Positions 155 through 64,000 of a DNA stretch of 64,000 nt are shown piece after piece. The translations under genes and the position numbers were made by a program. Positions within the stretch are counted from its first letter, which is position 1. Each line of letters begins with the position of its first letter. The notes beneath the pieces were generated by a model. The model saw nothing but the letters and a program-made list of their open reading frames with translations. It ran no database searches and was not told the origin of the DNA. This DNA is from Nannobrachium achirus (Eukaryota; Chordata; Actinopteri; Myctophiformes; Myctophidae). The stretch is taken from NCBI GenBank assembly GCA_963921795.1, contig OY997651.1:54210018-54274017 (forward strand), given 5' to 3'.

Positions 155-10505
<10,351 letters not shown>

Positions 10506-51402: not shown

Positions 51403-53530
51403 TTATATGATATTACCTCTCATAGCATATTTTATTGCTTGATTTTCTCTCTCCATGCGATCCTTCACTTCAATCATGTTCTGTGTCCTCTCATCGTTTC
51501 CTCCTGTCTCCTTGAGTTTGTTGATCACAAAATCCAGATGGATATAGGTGTAAAATGAGTCTCTATTCAAAGCAATATACTCCAGTTTGACAATGCACTG
51601 GTATATTCCGCTAATGATGTTTTCTCTCGCATCTTTTGTGTATTGCAGGTCTTTCTCAATTGCTGCCAACAATGCTTTCTTCTGACGTTTCTCCTCACCA
51701 ATTTTATACGTCATCTGGACATCTTCCATTGTTTTCCTAACCTTCCTTGTCCTGGGAACATATTTGTTCTCATCTTTGACATGTTTGGAGTAGTGACACT
51801 TCCCTGTACATGATCTACAGTTTTCACCTCTCATGTACTCACACCTGCAGGCCCATGTGCACCCTGGGTAATGACAGTTTTCCTCACAGATTGTACACCG
51901 GGTGGCCTTGTCCCACCAGCCACCAATACTTTCTAGCGCTTTGTAGACTTCATCAACTTCGACAGTAATTGTTGCTCTGCCAGTATTGTCTAACCCTTAA
52001 GTTCTGTTCAGATTCACTACACCTTCGTTCTGTTCGGGTCATTTTGACCCGGGGGATATTTGGTTTAAAAAAAACAACACTAATATAAATTTTAACTTAA
52101 CAAATCATCATGATACATTGACTTTGACTCAATACCAAACAATTCATATGATATATATGGTAAATGTTTGCATTTCTGCTTTGCTATATCACATTAAACA
52201 CTGAATGAGCTAGGCGTTTTTACTGATTTAGCTGGAATTCATGTAAAAAAAACTACTTCATTTAATACTGAGCAATATTGCTCATGCTTATAGGAAAAAA
52301 TGAAAATCAGACAGGGGGGCTTCGGAAGGGGGTGTTAGAAGGGGGGGGGCTGTGTGTCTGTGTTTTGGCACAATACTGTGTATTTCTGTGCATAATTATG
52401 TGCTTCCGGGTCAAAATGACCCGAACAGCACTTAAGGTTCAAAAAATATGAGGGGGGTGTAGCATGGGTGTAGGGCAAAAATATTTTTTTTACACGTTCA
52501 TCTCAGAAGAATCTTTAAGGCCAGTGAGTTTCAGGTGGAAAAAATGTAAACTTCTACCTTTTTTTTTCAAATGAAAATGTAAAACGGGTCAAAATGACCC
52601 GAACAGAACTTAAGGGCTAACTGACGTATTGCCTCTTTGACATGCCGGATTTCTCCTTGTTTCATCTCTATAAACTCAATCTGTTCCTTCAAATTGTTGC
52701 ACCATGCCTCCAACTGGATACGTTTTGTCAAAACATCAGCTGTCTGTTTCAAATCTTGAGTCTCCACTTTCTTAAGGAACTCCAAGAATTCGTTCATACC
52801 ATCCTGAGATGTTTCCCAAGCATATTTCCTTGCCCGTTTCTCTCTTTTTTTATCACTGGTGAATTTGTTTGGGCAGTTGTTGAATAAGAAGTAGATTGGT
52901 TCGTTTTCATCTCTTGCCATCTTGACCGTAGCAACTTGAAGAGCATGAAGTTCATTAGAGGGAGTTATTCCACTAGAATGAGTGATCAGAGCTACAATGT
53001 TCTTCTCCATGTCTTTCCCAAAAAGAGAGACAACAGAGTCAAAGATGTAATTCTGTCTGTCACGATTTGTACCTGCTTTCAACACCAAGCCAACAGCATC
53101 AAGTTGTTTGACTCCATCTTGAGTTATGAACAAACTTTGTAAACTTCTTGCTATTTGTTGATCTTCAACAACACCTCTGGTGTCTCCAAACCCAGGTGTG
53201 TCAATGATGGTCAGAGAGTATGGGAAGTTTTCATTATGAAGTCCAAAGATGTCATAAACTGTGATGGCTGGAGTTTGGCTCTCTGACTGATTTTGTGCTT
53301 TATCTAGAACCGTACACCATTCGTCTTCATATTGTGTGCCCATCAAGTGGTTCAGCATGGCATCAATCCAAGAAGACTTCCCTGCTCCTGTCTCTCCAAC
53401 CAGTAGGACAGTTTTATTTGGTATAGTTGGATCTTTCTCTCCAATGGTTTCTCTCCTGACTTTAGAATCCTCTTCTTCCTCTTGAACCCCGATTTTAAGT
53501 TTTTTCAGTTTTCCCATTAATCCGCTGTCC
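51403..53530 (-). pseudogene. GIMAP/septin-like P-loop GTPase, split by a transposon
   Basis: Large fish-expanded GTPase family, presumed cytosolic. Acceptor ...TTAACAG precedes 53530; first ATG at 53517 (MGKLKKLKIGVQ). From that ATG: P-loop GETGAGKS 41-48, Walker B/G3 DTPGFGD 106-112, then VALITHSSG where Ras-like proteins have the NKxD motif, and a helical region with KKVETQDLKQTADVLTKRIQ. A 623-bp transposon (51994-52616) cuts the exon after RQL, adding 16 foreign residues and a stop at 52567. Beyond it the same frame resumes: a Cys-rich stretch (RCTICEENCHYPGC, CRSCTGKCHYSKH) and a Lys/Glu helix to a stop at 51403. Without the insertion the exon encodes 495 codons. A donor-like AG|GTAATA lies at the very end. 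Called interrupted; a truncated protein may still be made. Confidence 0.78.
51994..52616. mobile_element. TTAA-class (piggyBac-like) MITE inside the GTPase exon
   Basis: Inverted ends CCCTTAAGTTCTGTTC...GAACAGAACTTAAGGG with subterminal palindrome CGGGTCATTTTGACCCG; CTAA at 51990-51993 and 52617-52620. CCC-starting ends fit piggyBac, although the usual target is TTAA. An internal CCGGGTCAAAATGACCCGAA-CAGCACTTAAGG (52405-52436) looks like the end of a second, nested or tandem copy. G-run at 52339-52349. No transposase. Confidence 0.85.
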
Positions 53531-53559
53531 CTGTTAACGTAAATGTAAACACACATTGT

Positions 53560-55660
53560 ACATTAATATACTGACACGTGACGAATCCATCAAAGCATTG
53601 ATGGTTATCACTGCCAAAATCTGTATTTGAATGCTTAGTTGTTTTGTATATTATTTTGTTACAATAGAAACCTTGAAAAGGTTCTCTGGCTGCACTTACA
53701 GCAACTACCGACTCAGGCACACAACTATACAGGCAACATTCCACTGCAAAACATTGGTGGCACATTGCGCTGCATCTCCGTAGAATCTCAACGCTGCGTG
53801 ATCAACATCCTCTATGACTGAATAAACAACTTCAGGTCACGAAATGGCCCTGGTGGGTAACTTACTCTTAACATCAAAGCCTTTTCCCGTCAAGCGACAT
53901 GGACCAGCACACGGGGGGGGTGAGAAACCCCTCGCAAACTTTTGAACTGGCTGACTGTGTCACAACCAAGGGAGGTAAAGACGGAAAAACACTGAGGCTG
54001 CGTTTCTAAGACAAAGGAACATTTAATGTCTTTTTTTATCTGAGCGTGCGAAAAAACAACAACCAGCCCAGGGAGGAGGCTGTGTTCTTGCACAGCGCTC
54101 TCCTCCGACCACTGCGCATGGCCATGCTGCCGTGTTTGGGACACGGCGCGGAGAGAAAACTGAACTGAACTGTAATCGACTTAAAATCCGTTGCGTTCGC
54201 CCGGCATGAAGAACCGAGGCATATAACGCTTAGTCCCATTTTTGAACATACGGGACATATTTACATTACACGTTACACTCCTTTTGTAACCACACTAACG
54301 GTTTCACAGCAGCATCGTTTTTGTTTTGTTTTTCCTTTTCTCTTTTCCTGTCAACCTAAGGAAGGCTGCAATGCAGATACATTGTCATGTGTCGCAATAT
54401 GATAGAGTTGTCGGCAAAAGCCGTTTGTATTAGTGCAACCCTTGGTCGCAGATTGTTTCCCCATTTAAGGGACAAACCTCACTCTATTTTCATCTCTTTG
54501 ATCTGAATAGTCGATGGAGTACAATAGAACCTTTCTCTTTTCTTTTACTAAGGAGACCGTCTTGATTTAAGTTGTTATAACCCCTATAACCATTCTCATA
54601 TTTTGAGACCATATTCAGTAGTATACATATTCTGTCTTACTAGAGAAACATGTCACGTCCTGAGGTAGGCTACAAGCTTAATTAATTGAGCCGCGGTAAG
54701 CCTCCAGACAGACGCGATTGCCGTCACTTTGATATCTCAGGACGCCACACGACTCTCTCCCTCTTTTCTTTCATCTGTTCTGAAAGTAGTATAGCAATAC
54801 TGTATGCACATCTTTTATGATTTTATAATAAATCACCTTTTTCATTATAACCTTAAGCAAACAGTGTGGACATTGGCTTTCTTTCTGTGGTTTTGAATCA
54901 ATGTGATTGCTACTGGAATCTTAAATGTGACTAATAAAGAATCCGCGTTTCAAACAGTGAATGGGAAGAGAAAATTATATTTTTCCCTAACCCTAACCCT
55001 TTTTTTTTTATTATTATTATTACCACTTAGTTAATTCTGATGGTCTATATACAAATAATAATAATAAAAAAAGACACTTGTGGTGTTACAGGTCAAACAG
55101 TGTGGCGCAATTCCCCCCAAATGTTACCCTTTTTACTGTATTTGCGTATACTTTGACCCGTAACACCACAAGTGAAGTTAAAAAACCATAACAAGTAATT
55201 TATTTTTTGGAAGCGTGTTCTAATATTAGTCTATTATAGCCAGATAACATCATTATCCATTGTCTTCTTTATAGGACATGACTGAATTTTATCATTTTTA
55301 TAATTGAAAATGAGCTATATTAAAAGATGACACCCTAACCCTAACCCCAAATTATATTTTAAAACTGTTTACATGGATATGAATGAACAAAGTCAGCTAA
55401 AATATATATAATTTTTGGAGTAATTAGGGCTGAGTTAAATCACGAGTCAAACACCAAAAGTGTCACCAGGTTTCTAACACAATGCAAGGGTTAAAGCATG
55501 AAGGTACACAGCCTCGTGTGGACGTCCAGTCTCGTCGCGTTTCCATTGTGAGTCAATGAGAAATTACATGACATGTGTATGTGTTGCTGCGCAGGCATCA
55601 AAGCACTCAATTTTACCTTGAGTCTGACGGTCCAGGTTCCATGCTTGTTCTTCTTCTTCT
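53560..55660. other. upstream of GTPase; no gene recognised
   Basis: Contains a moderately CpG-rich stretch (54060-54215) that could be the GTPase promoter or first exon region, two short ccctaaccct runs (54986-55001, 55333-55347) and an inverted repeat cacttgtggtgttac / gtaacaccacaagtg (55076-55175). No ORF with recognisable motifs. Confidence 0.45.
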
Positions 55661-57039: not shown

Positions 57040-57960
57040 TATTCCTCATTGAGCTGGGGACTCCCTGGAATCCCCTCCTCGAGGACCCCTTGGTTCCCCA
57101 GACCCCCAGTATGAGGTATGTAAATACCAGAGGTTAAATAAAAGTATGCAAGAATCGAAGTTGGCCCTTGGTTGCCTTACCTTTATGATCAAACTGGTGA
57201 AAACAACACTTGCTAATATATTGGCCTATGTCAGACAATAGAAAAAAACTGAACCAAACAAACTACAGTGTATATGATAATTGCTTATTCATCATTTCAC
57301 CCAATAGGTTTAAACAACATGGCTGTATTTTGAATGTCTTAAGTACAAGATCTTATGCCTTAACTTTGTTGACTATGTCCCAAAATGGCGATTCAGGTCA
57401 CCCCATGATTATTTTGAGCTTGCACTTTCAGGGGTACAATTCCCTGGAGAGAGAGGCCTTCTGTTAAAGTGTTGTGCGAGTGATTCTAAATGTTGCATAG
57501 ATATACATTCGCAGTAACATAGGAAGGTGCCTTGCAGGTCTCACCAGACTAACCTTGTGTAAACAAGGTTAATAGGCCTTGTGTCAATAGGAGCCATCAG
57601 AGGCAATGAGACGAGTAAATAAGCCAACAGAGTGTTCAACTTTGCACCGTATATTTGGAGCGGTAACCATGATAAAAGGCCCGACCTGGTGTACGATGCA
57701 GGGCTGTGCACGGTGACTAAAGGCCTAAAATATAAAAAACAGAATGCAACAATTGATAAAAGATATAAAAAAATCGATCAAAAGAAAAAATAGGATTTAT
57801 CCTTAAAGATTGTGCCTGCACCTTTTGCAATGAGTAATGGGTGAAGTGAAAGAAAGTGATGGACTGACAGGTTAAGATTTCTTATATATGATTTACAAAT
57901 GAGAAGTAGTCAAGACCTTTATGTTATCACTGTTCATGTAAATAGAATAGACATCAGGAA
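57040..57960. other. no gene recognised
   Basis: AT-rich, low repeat content, no supported ORF. Possible decayed DNA left of the provirus. Confidence 0.4.
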
Positions 57961-57969
57961 TGACAGAAT

Positions 57970-58125
57970 TGAAAAATGGCATAAGCTTGTAGATCGGCTA
58001 TTTAAAAAAAAAAAAAAGACTCAGCTAAAAAATGGCATGAGCTTGGAGATCGGCTATTTTCAAAAGGAAATATAAAGTGCTGATGAGCTTGGAGATCGGC
58101 TATTTTCAAAAGGAAAAATAAAGTG
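57970..58125. repeat. three half-hairpin units in tandem
   Basis: gcataagcttgtagatcggctattt, then twice gagcttggagatcggctattttcaaaaggaaa-ataaagtgctga (48-base period at 58040 and 58085). Lies 140 bases left of the LTR start. Confidence 0.8.
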
Positions 58126-58883
58126 CTGAAAAGCTATCTTTCAAACTGTCATCTCTGAGTTTACTAAAGATGTTGAATGCAGGAGACATACTGTACATGC
58201 TGTGCTCTGGTCTTGTCAACCTATTTTCCACTCATAACTGTATTGATTGACCTTTTGTGGGTTGTTGACACAGAAAACTAAACGTATGTAACCGTTTTTA
58301 TGGCTGAGGCGCCTGAGTGGAAACTCGGCTGTCAGCAATAAAAAAGGGTACTAAGCGAAGGGGCCCTGACCACAATCTCAGAACGACAAGCGAGGGGCCC
58401 CAGCGACAATATGGAATATTGTCAGCAATAATATCTAGGCGATGGGGCGCCGGCGATAATGTACACGACAACGTACGCTTTTACGCCTCTTCATTTCCGT
58501 AGTCAAGTAGGCGCTCGCCTCCTCACGTCCGTAGGTAAATAGGCCACGAGATAGCAATGGTTGCAAAAATTGCAGACAGACTTTGTGGTGAGACGCTTTT
58601 GGCGGGCCGCGCCATAAGAGACAAACATCCATATCTAGCTTTAGTGGCCTTCGACATATGGAGCAAATATATATCTAGCTTTAAATTGAGTATATGACTA
58701 TTGATGGGTTTTTCCACCTTGCTTGACAAACATATTAGCGGGCTATCACTATGGAAGAACAAACATAAATGTACAACTTTTATGTGACTGTTAAAATGAG
58801 TCTTGGTTGTTCAAATATTGATATGTTTCCCGCGAAGATGATCTTGTGGGCGGGTGACCCAGTTAAGCTCTCGGGCAAAGAGG

Positions 58884-58890
58884 TATAAAT
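58884..58890 (+). promoter_or_regulatory. LTR TATA box
   Basis: TATAAAT within gaggTATAAATggg; transcription expected about 25-30 bases on, near agtcagtcttctctaggg, which would be the start of R. Confidence 0.6.
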
Positions 58891-59297
58891 GGGTGTCGCT
58901 GCCAGCTTCTAGTCAGTCTTCTCTAGGGCTGCTTACTTGAAGCATTAAGTCCCTTATTCTCTGACCTTCACTCTATGAGGCTGGACCACCCGTTTGTTCC
59001 TTTTGGCTGAGACTCTTAACTTCTTTTTTACTTAGATTCTTTTTACACTTAGTATTTTTCTGAGATGCATAGGATAGAAAAGGCTCATAGCCACTATTAT
59101 AATCTGCTTTGCTCAATGTTCTAATATTGTGATAAATGTTTAGCATAGTTACTGCAATGTAACTTTTATAACTTTAATGATTTAAACCTTGTAATCCATT
59201 TTTTTTTTTAAACTTTTACATTTTTGAACTTTTACTTGTAAGCCCTTAAGGCCGTTTTCCTTTTTCTTTAAAGACAAAAAATAATATAACTTGATAA

Positions 59298-59303
59298 AAT
59301 AAA
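59298..59303 (+). terminator. LTR polyadenylation signal
   Basis: AATAAA about 385 bases past the presumed start, followed by a T/GT-containing stretch. It would end R near 59320 and leave a ~1-kb U5. A good splice donor match (GAGAG|GTAAGC, 59421-59431) follows. Confidence 0.5.
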
Positions 59304-60377
59304 AAGCGTGTAAAAGCCTTTTTACCAAACCTTCCTCTCCAGTCCTTTTTCTTTCTTATTTCTGAACTAACCACTATATCAAGATCCAAGGGTTCTCCAA
59401 CAGTACCGCGTTCAGCCCCTGAGAGGTAAGCCCTGGAACCACACTACGGCTGTACATCTACTGATACACACTCACATCTCATATAGGTGGATATTTGTAA
59501 TAGAGGTTTATTAAGGAGTATGTCATGATTCACAGTATTGACATTATTAATGCATTGGGAATTGTACTCTGGTTTATTTCATTGTATATGGTATTGAAAA
59601 AGATGAGAATCGTATATATTATCACTGCATGTGGTGGACGGAACTGAATACGCAATCTCTGGACTCTGGCTTTAGGGTTGCATTCTGAGGGTGTTAACAT
59701 ATTACCTAAGATAATTTAGCTAAGGTTTACAGTAATTTTCCTACAGACAAATGTTTTTATTTAGGGGTGACAGTCACCATGTTTAAAGGATAATAATCAA
59801 ATTCGGGGTAAAATATATATATTATTGCCGTTTGTCCAAGGAGATGCGTCCTGGGTTCCTTCCTCCATCCAGTGTATCTGTGTAGGATACTCAGTTGTTT
59901 TGGGAATCGACAGAAAACTTCATATTATTGCATTTATCTAGATTGAGGGAGTAGGACAGGTTTAAAGGTCGATAGATTTTTGAGGAGCCCTCTCAACCTC
60001 TACCTTATCCTCAATAACAGTCCTCTCACATTATTTCCTTCTAGTTCCCTTTCATGAGTTATGGGACTAAGCTAGTTGGAGAGAGGAGTTATTTGAGGGG
60101 TCTATCGGTGGTAACCAGGTTAGGTCTGAGCTCCAGTTGTTTCCCCTGGATGGCCATCCAGGGCACTGGCCGGACTAGCTACGACCTGGAATTACCATAG
60201 GGAAACGATTTGCTGTCTCTTCTTTCCCTACCACAAGCGGCTGCAGTTTCATAGCATACACTTCTGTGTTGACGCTTGTTTTAAAAGGTCCCGGAGGAGG
60301 GCCTCCTGTCTTGCAGTTTACACACCTCTTTCAGGGGTCGTGACCTTAGGGGTCGTGACCTTCTGTCAAGGTCAACA

Positions 60378-60395
60378 TGGCGCCCAACGTGGGGC
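60378..60395 (+). promoter_or_regulatory. primer binding site, tRNA-Lys type
   Basis: TGGCGCCCAACGTGGGGC matches all 18 bases expected for priming by the tRNA-Lys(1,2) 3' end, the primer used by foamy and several other retroviruses. It abuts the LTR CA end, as in retroviruses. This is the strongest evidence that 58263-64000 is a reverse-transcribing provirus. Confidence 0.88.
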
Positions 60396-61181
60396 TGGTA
60401 GAGGCTAGCTTGGTCTGATGTTATAAAGAGTAGGATCTGCTTAGCCTTCTCCAGTTAAACTACAAAAACCCACTAAACTGAGAAAAAGTGTCTTTGCTCA
60501 AACCAGCGAAATCAAGCTGAGGTAGACGTTGAAAATTGCCAGGACAGGGCTGCACCCTGCATTGATGTGTCACATCGCCCGCGGAGAACCGACGGGGCCA
60601 TTTTTGGAGCTCTCACGCTTGCAGCCCTCTCTTGGTCGACCCAACCAAACCGGTACCTGCAGACTGAGGCTATAATTGGACTCCCATAAAAACTTTGTAG
60701 CTCCTCTCAGTGGAGAGGATAGCGCCTTAGTAAAGAGGGAAGAAAAGCGGTCTGTTTTAAAAAGGGGTGAAAGCCTTCTAAGGGTGTCAAAGCCTGGTTG
60801 GTTGGGCCGATAAGCTCACAGGCAAAGCTAAAGGAACTTGTTTTGTTTGTGTGTAGTGAAGATTAAACGTACTACCACCCTAGGTTGTCAGGTACCTAGG
60901 TTGTTGGAATAGGAAAAGTGATAGCCTCACCCTTCTTGTTCTAAAAACAGCGGCCCAAAAAATAGGTCGCTGGCCCGGAGACGTAGTACGACCCTGTGAA
61001 TGATGTTCCACGGGTCTCTCCCGTCCCCCCACCAGCTGTATCCGATAGAGTAGCCTGGAACTAGGTGAAGGTCCAGTTAGAATTGATCACTCCGACGCGA
61101 CGAGACCGAGGAACCGGGATCGAAAAAAGGCACTCACCTGTTTCCTCTCGGGGTCGCTCCGAGGGGAACATTCATAATTTT

Positions 61182-61495
61182 GCAGAAGCCCACCCACCCA
61201 TAGGTACAGCGGTGGGGTTCCTTTTGCTGTTTTTGCAAAGCCCATTAACAAAGTGGGTATCCTTTGCTATTCATTGAGTTTATATTATTGCAAACCCCAC
61301 CAACAGAGTAGGGTGTCTTTGCTGTTTACTATTGAAACTACTGTTCATGATTGAATTGCTGCTTATTATTGAATCGCTGTGTTTGGTTGAATTGTCATTC
61401 ATTATCGAACCTGTTGTGTATTGTTGAAATCGCTGTGTTTTGTTGAATTGCTGCAAAGTCCACCCACCCAAAGGAACAGGGTGGGATTCCTTCGC
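61182..61495 (+). promoter_or_regulatory. four repeated stem-loops in the leader RNA
   Basis: 61182-61229, 61235-61267, 61290-61322 and 61453-61495 share one fold. The outer stem is GCAAAG/CTTTGC (with variants GCAGAAG/CTTTTGC and GCAAAG/CTTCGC). The inner stem is CCCA or CCACCC with TGGG or GGGTGG. An asymmetric bulge on the 3' side (TATC, GGTTC, GATTC) separates the two. Base pairs are kept although sequences differ, which argues for a selected RNA structure. Confidence 0.65.
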
Positions 61496-61735
61496 CGATT
61501 CTACCGTGTAATCGCAAGGCCGGCAGTAGTCCTCATATGTGCGGGGTATCAGACTACTGGTTGTAAATCCACCATACTGTTGATAGGGAAAGTCTGTATG
61601 CGTGGCGAGCTAGCTAGCTCTTTGGTTGTAAACCCACCATACTGTTGATAGGGAAAGTTTGTATGTTGGTAGACCAGTACAACTGATTGTAAAGCCGCCA
61701 TATGGCTGTTGGCTTTGTTGTGTAAATATATATAG

Positions 61736-61738
61736 AAA

Positions 61739-61789
<51 letters not shown>

Positions 61790-61790
61790 A
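61736..61790. repeat. (AAAT)n microsatellite
   Basis: About 13 AAAT units in the proviral leader, 240 bases before the Gag-position ORF. Confidence 0.95.
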
Positions 61791-62027
61791 CAAATAAAAG
61801 ATAAATAAAATATATACTGCTGCACAACAAACGGCAGAGCCCGAGTAGTTTGAACCCAAGACAGAGGACAGTTTTAGGTACCATAGGAAGTATCCCTGTG
61901 AATATACCAGCCAGTAACAAGTTAAATCAAATTAGAATAAAAATAAATAAAAGGACGGATATATATACAGTAAGAAGTATATACCAGAGAATAACTGAAA
62001 ACTGAAAATAAGAAGTTATCATAAATA

Positions 62028-64000
62028 ATGGCCGACGACGCAAGTTATGGCGATGCCGATGAGGCTCAAACCAACTTCGGTTCCTCCCATGAGGACGAGG
62101 GGGGCCAGGCCCTCCCCAATGCCCCTAGAATGGAGGGGACCTTAGGGTTCGGGTCCCCTCCCACCCAGTATCGGTCCTTATCTTCACACCCCCCTCCTTA
62201 TCCAGAAAGTGAGGAACACACCTCAGTGGGGTCGGACAGGCCCCAGAGCCAGATCTACCCTCACCTACCGAGCCTAGTACCCACGCTCTCAATTGCCCAA
62301 CAAGAGATTAGACCGGCCAACCCCCATCAAGGAGGGGGGCTAACCATAATCCGAACTGATATAGTTAACCTGGGGGGGCGCCCCTGTGTAATGGTGAACC
62401 CTGCAAACGACACGTTGTCACATGTCGGAGGGGTGGCCTCTGCACTCGCTCACATGGCAGGGCCAGCTATGCAAGCAGAATCAGACCAACTAGTGACCAA
62501 TAATTCTGGACCCTTTAACCGGGACCAGGTTGTGGTAACCACCGCCTGCCGCAACCAAAATATTTTGGCCATCCTCCACGTTATTCTACACCGGAGGACG
62601 GAAACCCTAGACGAGAATCCCCGCCGCGTCCTAAAGAGGGCGTACGATAATGTCATGCGTACAGCTCAAGAAGTACTCCAGGGAGTCGAAATTAACAATC
62701 TGATTATGACCCCCTTTGGATGTGGGGTTTTCGGCTACTCCCCAATGGACTCCCTAGAGGCCTTTAAGGCCTCCTGGACCGAACACGGGCAGCACCTTAA
62801 CATTAAGCTGTGCGTACGCGAGCCAGAACGCTATGAGCCATGGAGGCGGTCGCTGGCCGAGCCAGTCACCCACGTTCTCGACCCAGACTTCTCTGGGCTC
62901 CAGGCACCACATTCTGGGCGACCCTCACCGGGCCAAACCCATGCTCACCACCCCCCCGAAGAACTTGAGGGGGGCAGGGGCCCTTCCGGCCCCCGAACGC
63001 CCCGACCTGGGCGACCCTCACCGGGCCAAACCCATGCTCACCACCCCCCCGAAGAACTTGAGGGGGGCAGGGGCCCTTCCGGCCCCCAAACGCCCCGACC
63101 TGGGCAGCCCTCCCCGAGCCAGCCTCGATCACACCACACTCCCGGGTCACCCGGGGATCCTAACTTAGGGCAGTTGACCTTAGGCGGCAGAGAAAACCCA
63201 AATCCCCCAGGCGAGGGGGCCTTCACGGTCGGGGATACCAGGGTCCTGATTGAGGTACTGGCACCCGATCAAGTGAACACCCAGCTCGGCCATGGTCCCC
63301 TCCTCACCCTACACCACCCCAATTTAGCTGAAAATGAAGACCACGAGGCAGAGGTGAGGAGACTTCTCGGCCGAGCTCATGCCCGAAGGGCTAGAGCTCG
63401 AGCCAAAGCCTCCCAGGGTGAGGGGGCAAGCCAGCAGCCTAATGGAGACTTAGGAGCAGGGGAAATAGCAGAGGTCGACCCAGGGGACTCTGCAGGCCAG
63501 TTATACACCTCCATTTTTCATGGAGTACTAAGTACCCAGGTTTATAGCAAAACTCACCAACCCCACCCAGAGACCCTAGCCGAAAATTGGAAATTACTCA
63601 TTGAGGAGGCTCTAGGATGGGCTGAGGAGGATGTGTCCCCTATAATGACAATCAGGTGTAGGACCCAGGGGAGGAATTACCAGGGCATATCCACCAAACG
63701 TTTGATTGAAGGACTTGCCCTGGCCGTACCTTTTGATCACGGTATACTTCTGGTGAGAATCCTAGTGGATACTCCAAATTTCAAAACTATCCTTAGGGAT
63801 AAAATCATGGACGCTCACACAGCATGGCTCCAGTCCCTCGATGGGGACCAGGAGGACGAGAATGTCCAAGTGGAAGCCCCACGGAGCTGGAGAAGCGAAA
63901 CAAGGTGCTCTGAGAGGGCGGGAACCCCATTCCCTAGCCCCTCTAGATGTCCTGCACCCGGGAACCCCTCAGTGGGCCATCCCCCGGATATTACTCATAA
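62028..64000 (+). CDS. Gag-position polyprotein with macro domain (partial)
   Basis: Open from ATG 62028 to the window edge (657 codons, no stop), the first long ORF after the primer site, so it sits where gag does. Residues 1-100 are acidic and Pro-rich with PPPY at 55-58, a late-domain motif used by Gag proteins to recruit Nedd4-type ligases. About 105-265 is a macro domain: IIRTDIVN, VNPANDTLSHVGGVASALA (124-142; Asn124, Asn127 and the Gly loop of the ADP-ribose site) and TPFGCGVFGYSP (phosphate loop). Then a 31-residue Pro/Gly/His repeat (2.3 copies, from about 297), an Arg-rich stretch (RAHARRARARAKA), and a folded-looking region (TSIFHGVLS, ENWKLLIEEALGWAEED) that may be capsid-like. 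No CCHC knuckle before the edge. GC-rich compared with flanks. Other reading: a host gene captured by, or lying beside, an LTR. Confidence 0.82.
   Translation, partial: MADDASYGDADEAQTNFGSSHEDEGGQALPNAPRMEGTLGFGSPPTQYRSLSSHPPPYPESEEHTSVGSDRPQSQIYPHLPSLVPTLSIAQQEIRPANPHQGGGLTIIRTDIVNLGGRPCVMVNPANDTLSHVGGVASALAHMAGPAMQAESDQLVTNNSGPFNRDQVVVTTACRNQNILAILHVILHRRTETLDENPRRVLKRAYDNVMRTAQEVLQGVEINNLIMTPFGCGVFGYSPMDSLEAFKASWTEHGQHLNIKLCVREPERYEPWRRSLAEPVTHVLDPDFSGLQAPHSGRPSPGQTHAHHPPEELEGGRGPSGPRTPRPGRPSPGQTHAHHPPEELEGGRGPSGPQTPRPGQPSPSQPRSHHTPGSPGDPNLGQLTLGGRENPNPPGEGAFTVGDTRVLIEVLAPDQVNTQLGHGPLLTLHHPNLAENEDHEAEVRRLLGRAHARRARARAKASQGEGASQQPNGDLGAGEIAEVDPGDSAGQLYTSIFHGVLSTQVYSKTHQPHPETLAENWKLLIEEALGWAEEDVSPIMTIRCRTQGRNYQGISTKRLIEGLALAVPFDHGILLVRILVDTPNFKTILRDKIMDAHTAWLQSLDGDQEDENVQVEAPRSWRSETRCSERAGTPFPSPSRCPAPGNPSVGHPPDITH
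62916..63120 (+). repeat. 93-bp in-frame tandem repeat in the polyprotein ORF
   Basis: Units start at 62916, 63009 and 63102 (third partial and diverged). The first two differ at a handful of bases and encode GRPSPGQTHAHHPPEELEGG followed by RGPSGP-TPRP. The length, a multiple of three, keeps the frame. Confidence 0.92.

Follow-up and report, generated by a model that had tools for sequence, protein, structure and literature searches.

A giant foamy-like provirus of Nannobrachium achirus with an apparently long-kept macro domain in its putative Gag

The window, i.e. the whole stretch of 64,000 nucleotides analysed here (G000:C14:54210018-54274017), runs into a giant foamy-like provirus whose gag-position ORF contains a macro domain. 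On balance we think that this domain is an old component of Gag, kept by vertical descent, and that it probably acts against antiviral PARPs as an eraser of ADP-ribosyl marks. As far as sequence comparison can tell, a macro domain is common to four divergent foamy-like lineages of the host genome, whose 1.66 Gb were searched.

Results

Structure, copies and age of the provirus

The provirus is 24,459 bp long and has paired LTRs, a target site duplication, a primer binding site, a polypurine tract (AGAGGGGG, just before the 3' LTR), RT, RNase H and integrase. The features that lie in the window are given in Table 1. A sequence-only reading of the window had placed a macro domain in the gag-position ORF of an LTR element, behind a perfect retroviral primer site. 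Both proposals hold: the element has paired LTRs, a target site duplication and a pol downstream of the ORF, and the 18 bases TGGCGCCCAACGTGGGGC, which we take to be the complement of tRNA-Lys1,2, start directly after the LTR end. They occur once in the window, both strands counted. Primer sites for tRNA-Lys are described for fish foamy-like elements and for most mammalian foamy viruses (PMC5512871, in excerpts). No Rfam family and no tRNA was found in the window.

Table 1. Features of the provirus within the window
Feature	Position (strand)	Remarks
4-bp target site duplication ACTT	57363..57366	repeated immediately behind the 3' LTR, beyond the window; junction comparison
5' LTR, 3011 bp, TGTTGAC...GTCAACA	57367..60377 (+)	identical to the 3' LTR at C14:54288832-54291842
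Primer binding site TGGCGCCCAACGTGGGGC	60378..60395 (+)	directly adjoins the LTR end at 60377
Leader ahead of the gag ORF, about 1.6 kb	60396..62027 (+)	
gag-position ORF	62028..64000 (+), open at the window edge	657 codons in the window; ends near window coordinate 65123
PPPY, possible late-domain motif	62190..62201 (+)	residues 55-58; chance occurrence plausible
Macro domain	62394..62759 (+)	residues 123-244; Asn127 of VNPAN, loop 2 TPFGCGVFGY
Two 93-bp (31-aa) in-frame tandem repeats, proline-rich linker	62914..63099 (+)	
C-terminal Gag region within the window	63480..63998 (+)	without Pfam match

Three further copies with the same gag were found, of 24,433 bp (C10), 24,208 bp (C7) and 24,244 bp (C2) as judged from LTR positions. 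Copies of the macro-bearing ORF outside LTR elements were looked for, as the sequence-only reading had proposed, and all four sit between paired LTRs. When 12 LTR pairs were compared (1.4-2.4 kb each), nine were identical, two differed by one base and one was 99.3% identical. Because the LTRs of the window provirus show 0 differences in 3,011 bp, at a fish substitution rate of 1.46e-8 per site per year (PMC5512871, in excerpts), this insertion most likely dates to within the last 35,000 years or so, an estimate in which gene conversion could mislead. Identical LTRs would mean that the provirus moved very recently.

The LTR and the leader are common to relatives at G000:C6:4013254-4032984 and to LTR pairs on C2, C20, C1, C3 and C9. 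Where compared with relatives that are without the window-type gag, the leader is 92-98% identical over the stretches that match, and no macro domain was found in these LTR- and leader-sharing relatives. In the C6 and C2 relatives the leader continues into a Pol that comprises the RT tail, RNase H and integrase and is about 50% identical to the window Pol; these two have the look of non-autonomous recombinants that are mobilised in trans. LTR relatives of about 80% identity are located at C3:5830-9040, C6:15552-18394, C12:6539-8568, C255:9308-12616 and C544:8033-10884, i.e. within some 20 kb of contig starts, and are perhaps subtelomeric.

Pol and the frames that follow it

The pol that was looked for past position 64000 is present: downstream of gag lie RT (E 1.2e-25), then RNase H (E 1e-19, above the Pfam cut-off), then an integrase, which matches the PFV integrase (E 4.8e-8, PDB) and stays under the cut-off of Pfam's two integrase models (E 0.003). 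Against solved chains the RT gives E-values of 4e-71 to 2.6e-58 with 7ksf, 7kse ('Peptidase A9/Reverse transcriptase/RNase H') and 7o0h ('Pr125Pol'), which we take to be foamy virus enzymes, 3.8e-33 with Ty3-G (7q5b), 4.5e-24 with the p80 RT chains, presumably of MLV type, and about 1e-11 with HIV-1. The corresponding scores are 243 bits for 7ksf, 118 for Ty3-G, 88 for p80 RT and about 47 for HIV-1. Judged against solved structures alone, this Pol is closest to foamy virus Pol. An epsilonretrovirus was also considered and rejected on the 243 bits obtained with the foamy-type RT versus 88 for the best MLV-type one, the solved chains shown including no epsilon RT.

The pol frame has 1023 codons in the C2 copy and 1179 in the other three. 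The frame after gag holds LDTGAD, presumably a protease-like motif, and Pfam gives no protease match there. Gag-pro-pol frameshifting as a reading of the post-gag frames was dropped in view of the longer gag frames of the sibling copies: from stop to stop, and with frames uncorrected, gag has 1032 codons in the window copy, 1263 in C10 and C7, and 1232 in C2. Given these lengths, the simpler reading is that gag of the window copy has been shortened.

After pol comes an env-like frame of 1134 codons, which has hydrophobic segments close to its two ends, RAKR and 15 N-glycosylation sequons, but no Pfam or PDB match. Its early hydrophobic segment and furin-like site resemble those of foamy Env. 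It is separated from pol by a 432-codon frame and followed by frames of 177, 262 and 692 codons. None of the five frames (432, 1134, 177, 262 and 692 codons) has a Pfam match above cut-off.

The gag-position ORF and its macro domain

We infer from its position that the ORF is Gag. Among the Pfam matches to any Gag piece there is no Gag family, even at E 10, and the same pieces gave one weak, chance-like match against PDB and nothing else. Neither the whole ORF nor the macro segment has a relative at E 1e-3 in the protein databases searched; the whole ORF has none in IMG/VR, where an alignment of the retroviral macros gave 11 pattern matches, 0 of them confirmed. The C-terminal region of Gag, used in a genome protein search, recovers the same four proviruses only. 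At the site of the tandem repeats the C2 sibling shows a 31-aa gap, and repeat copy number varies among the proviruses. The PPPY motif to which the sequence-only reading had drawn attention is indeed present, but it is weak evidence for a late domain because 206 of 2000 shuffles of this proline-rich ORF sequence also contain PPxY.

The macro domain itself, with its ADP-ribose loop motifs, proved genuine: Pfam Macro (PF01661) matches this part of the ORF with 53.8 bits (cut-off 22, E 2.2e-14). The best solved chains for the ORF are 6ln0 ('Non-structural protein 3') and 3vfq (PARP14), with E 4.1e-8 each. PDB chains of MacroD type also match the macro region, as do NCBIfam ADP-ribose-binding models, every one under its curated cut-off. 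Single-sequence structure predictions reached pLDDT values of 36.9 and 34.8, too poor to use.

In macro domains the Asn of VNxxN and the Gly loop are residues of the ADP-ribose pocket. Asn127, singled out early as a conserved residue, is invariant in all six aligned retroviral macros, as are the loop glycine (residue 135) and the other Asn of VNPAN. The Gly loop reads HVGG rather than HGGG, as had been remarked from the window sequence. Since the host PARP14-type macro has HIGG at the same place (its I aligning with V133 of the window macro), HVGG is no sign of a dead pocket. This host macro, on C12, belongs to a PARP14-type gene (PARP14 match E 5.6e-57).

Macro domains upstream of other foamy-like RTs

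A genome protein search with the macro segment gave 64 matches, and all 85 first-look candidates were scored. Lineage A comprises the four window-type copies and lineage B three copies, with 35% identity to the window macro. In lineage C we sorted 18 dispersed rows (31-35% identity), of which 12 show a frame of 384 codons; three copies were read. Lineage D, with about 28% identity, accounts for 31 rows located upstream of foamy-like RT. The remaining macro matches are host-type or unassigned, and include the PARP14-type gene on C12. Pfam Macro (PF01661) gives 47.5 bits for lineage B, 44.6 for C and 34.8 for D.

In the converse search, 149 of 3084 RT candidates were scored, hence the RT counts are lower bounds. 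Foamy-like RTs, defined by an identity of at least 42%, make up 42 rows at 41 loci; the other 107 rows show 28-35%. Among the 149 rows scored, 38 of the 41 foamy-like loci have a same-strand macro domain 3.8-6.1 kb upstream (4/4 for lineage A, 3/3 for B and 31/32 for D), and 39 of 41 when the decayed macro of the C11 locus is counted. The latter is a C-type macro split between two frames upstream; over 97 residues its identity to a further C-type macro reaches 91%. At the C17 locus, a miss, the end of the stretch matches sequence from far upstream in a D copy, and gag looks deleted; at C4, also a miss, reading 2.4 kb brought up no macro. Of the 107 other RT rows scored, 0 have a macro in the same orientation at a distance of up to 12 kb; one of these rows lies 10.7 kb from an opposite-strand macro, which belongs to a D copy.

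One B copy and one D copy were read directly, and each shows a macro-bearing frame followed by Pol. Their Pols are 41.8% (B) and 39.4% (D) identical to the window Pol, and 46.7% identical to each other. The C-terminal part of the D Gag is 36.6% identical to that of the window (E 2.7e-9). The 2.6-2.7 kb read upstream of the B and D macros gave no tRNA-Lys primer site; the best match there is 12/18, and shuffles (best of 100) reach 13-14.

Lineage C at G000:C11:63080500-63089600 gave no window-type pol match over about 6 kb downstream, in one copy read. Lineage C may be a non-autonomous family which has retained the macro ORF only.

History of the macro domain and selection

An unrooted tree was made of ten macro sequences, six retroviral and four host-type, without MacroD, TARG1 and coronavirus macros. 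It splits the retroviral from the four host macros with a support of 100/99, and a long branch divides the two groups. Inside the retroviral group the branching is A,(B,(D,C)), which agrees with the Pol identities between A, B and D given above. Two motifs, VNP(A/T)N and MT(L/P)FG, are common to the six retroviral macros and missing from the four host-type ones. The local identity of the window macro is 33.8% to the host PARP14-type macro (E 1.8e-14) versus 27-33% to the retroviral macros B, C and D. Because local identity to the host macro is thus equally high, a single origin rests on the tree and on the shared motifs. The simplest account would be one capture before the lineages parted, and then descent together with Pol.

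Loop 2 differs by lineage (GVFGY, GSYGH, DAYGY and GTWDY), and part of it is missing from the C7 copy; given this variation, activity may differ or be lost in some lineages. Pairwise dN/dS of the macro domain among the three lineage C copies is 0.38, 0.18 and 0.11 (150-154 codons; dS is above 1 for two pairs). The four near-identical A copies have 6 nonsynonymous versus 1-2 synonymous sites in the macro, too few to judge constraint.

Other features of the window

On the minus strand, an ORF at 52567-53562 has an AIG1/septin-type GTPase match (E 9.4e-10) and is possibly an immune GTPase gene. A C1-set immunoglobulin exon, presumably MHC class II-like, lies at 3713-4096 on the same strand (E 2.6e-23). 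Inverted arms of 51 nt, 78% complementary, at 52027-52077 and 52559-52609 surround 481 nt, with CGGGTCAAAATGACCCG palindromes; this unit (52027-52609) is perhaps a small mobile element.

Discussion

Possible function of the macro domain

Plus-strand RNA viruses are known to use macrodomains against PARP defence, and counter-defence against host ADP-ribosylation appears the likeliest function of the domain described here. Gag would carry many macro copies into assembling and incoming particles, where the domain would bind ADP-ribose and probably hydrolyse ADP-ribosyl links; it would read or strip the mono-ADP-ribose that antiviral PARPs put on viral or host proteins. From the macro family we infer this hydrolase activity and the antagonism to PARPs; the binding of ADP-ribose and the presence in particles are equally putative. 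The first macrodomains (MD1) of PARP14 and PARP9, described as relatives of coronavirus Mac1, cleave off ADP-ribose that is linked to glutamate, and in the view of the authors viruses could conceivably have acquired such a domain to oppose PARP14 (PMC10499325, in excerpts). Because of this hydrolysis and of the invariant Asn127 and Gly135 we favour a Gag-borne eraser, followed by a reader and then by a structural use. Somewhat less likely than not is the fuller version, in which giant foamy-like retroviruses of fish would have an ancestral and enzymatically active macro built into Gag, and every particle would thus deliver an ADP-ribosyl hydrolase to the cell, as an answer to PARP defence that sits in the capsid and acts ahead of viral gene expression.

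It seems rather doubtful to us that the domain is a reader and not an eraser. As a reader it would do no more than bind ADP-ribose or PAR and thereby guide Gag during assembly or integration, e.g. to ADP-ribosylated chromatin or PARP-rich bodies. The variability of loop 2 among lineages, with the first loop and its Asn kept, would fit a binding module, as would AF1521, which is the best solved match of the macro family profile and serves as an ADPr-binding reagent (PMC10499325, in excerpts). But the catalytic-type Asn, which binding alone might not need, is invariant in the six aligned retroviral macros, and both AF1521 and PARP14 MD1 count as hydrolases too, going by their name or by a test. 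We give still less credit to a structural or nucleic-acid-binding use, in which the captured fold would serve assembly or RNA binding and ADP-ribose would be irrelevant. The location of the macro in a putative structural protein, the 25% global identity of a retroviral macro to one host macro and the long branch between host and retroviral macros are compatible with it, but the positions conserved with cellular macros (V-N-x-x-N and the loop Gly) fall in the ligand loops. Finally, a functionless passenger, picked up from a host macro exon recently and by chance, might be suggested by this exact Gag having been found in the genome in only four near-identical copies with no measurable selection among them, and by the local similarity of the window macro, which is as high to the host PARP14-type macro as to retroviral ones, but it is very improbable and was largely rejected: the domain recurs at this position in lineages B and D, whose Pols are about 40% identical to that of the window, and in a decayed C copy, the macro tree agrees with Pol, and dN/dS in lineage C is well below 1.

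A macro retained at the position of Gag by divergent foamy-like lineages would bring retroviruses into the PARP conflict, and it would become testable which step ADP-ribosylation attacks (entry, uncoating, assembly or integration).

Comparison with known systems

The sequence-only reading had proposed that this domain would be a new strategy; to call it wholly new goes too far. Extra ORFs for CNPase or macro domain proteins occur occasionally in ERVs of ray-finned fish, according to excerpts of a 2016 review (PMC4977317, citing Basta et al. 2009), so that a 'first ever' macro in a fish retrovirus is too strong a claim. Like the window provirus, these teleost epsilon-like ERVs are fish retroviruses that encode a macro domain; as that review describes them, the ORFs there are additional ones, whereas here Pol is foamy-like and the macro lies inside the gag-position ORF. 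Searches of the literature on macro domains and on fish, foamy or gene-capturing retroviruses, mostly outside subscription journals and at the level of titles, abstract openings and excerpts, listed no report of a macro in a foamy-like Gag, which is weak evidence. Within that literature, what appears new is that giant foamy-like viruses have a conserved macro at the position of Gag.

The closest known elements are described in excerpts of PMC5512871. AciFLERV and AliFLERV, like the window provirus, have a foamy-type Pol, a tRNA-Lys primer site, an oversized genome, additional ORFs both downstream of env and between it and pol, and young insertions with near-identical LTRs. Among the fish foamy-like ERVs of Aiewsakun and Katzourakis are elements of about 17.4 kb, there called the largest retroviruses known (PMC5512871; up to 17 kb in excerpts of PMC6431247), and their proteins other than Pol have no strong similarity to the mammalian ones. 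Compared by description, the window provirus differs from AciFLERV and AliFLERV by its 24.5 kb versus about 17.4 kb, i.e. about 7 kb more, and by the macro in its gag-position ORF. The main text of PMC5512871 has 'ADP-ribos' 0 times and 'macro-' words four times, shown as macroevolution. An oversized genome together with an ORF between pol and the env-like frame (here of 432 codons) is a trait of the Gigantospumavirus type that the window provirus displays.

The RT, RNase H and integrase have their best matches in mammalian foamy viruses (PFV, SFV), and we know of no macro domain in the Gag of these viruses. Their genomes measure about 10 kb (PMC5512871, in excerpts) versus 24.5 kb for the window provirus. 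The macrodomains of coronaviruses and their relatives and the MD1 of PARP14 and PARP9 share VN(A/P)AN and the Gly loop with the window macro, 6ln0 and 3vfq being its top solved matches, but they sit in a replicase or in a host enzyme, whereas the window macro sits in a retroviral gag-position polyprotein.
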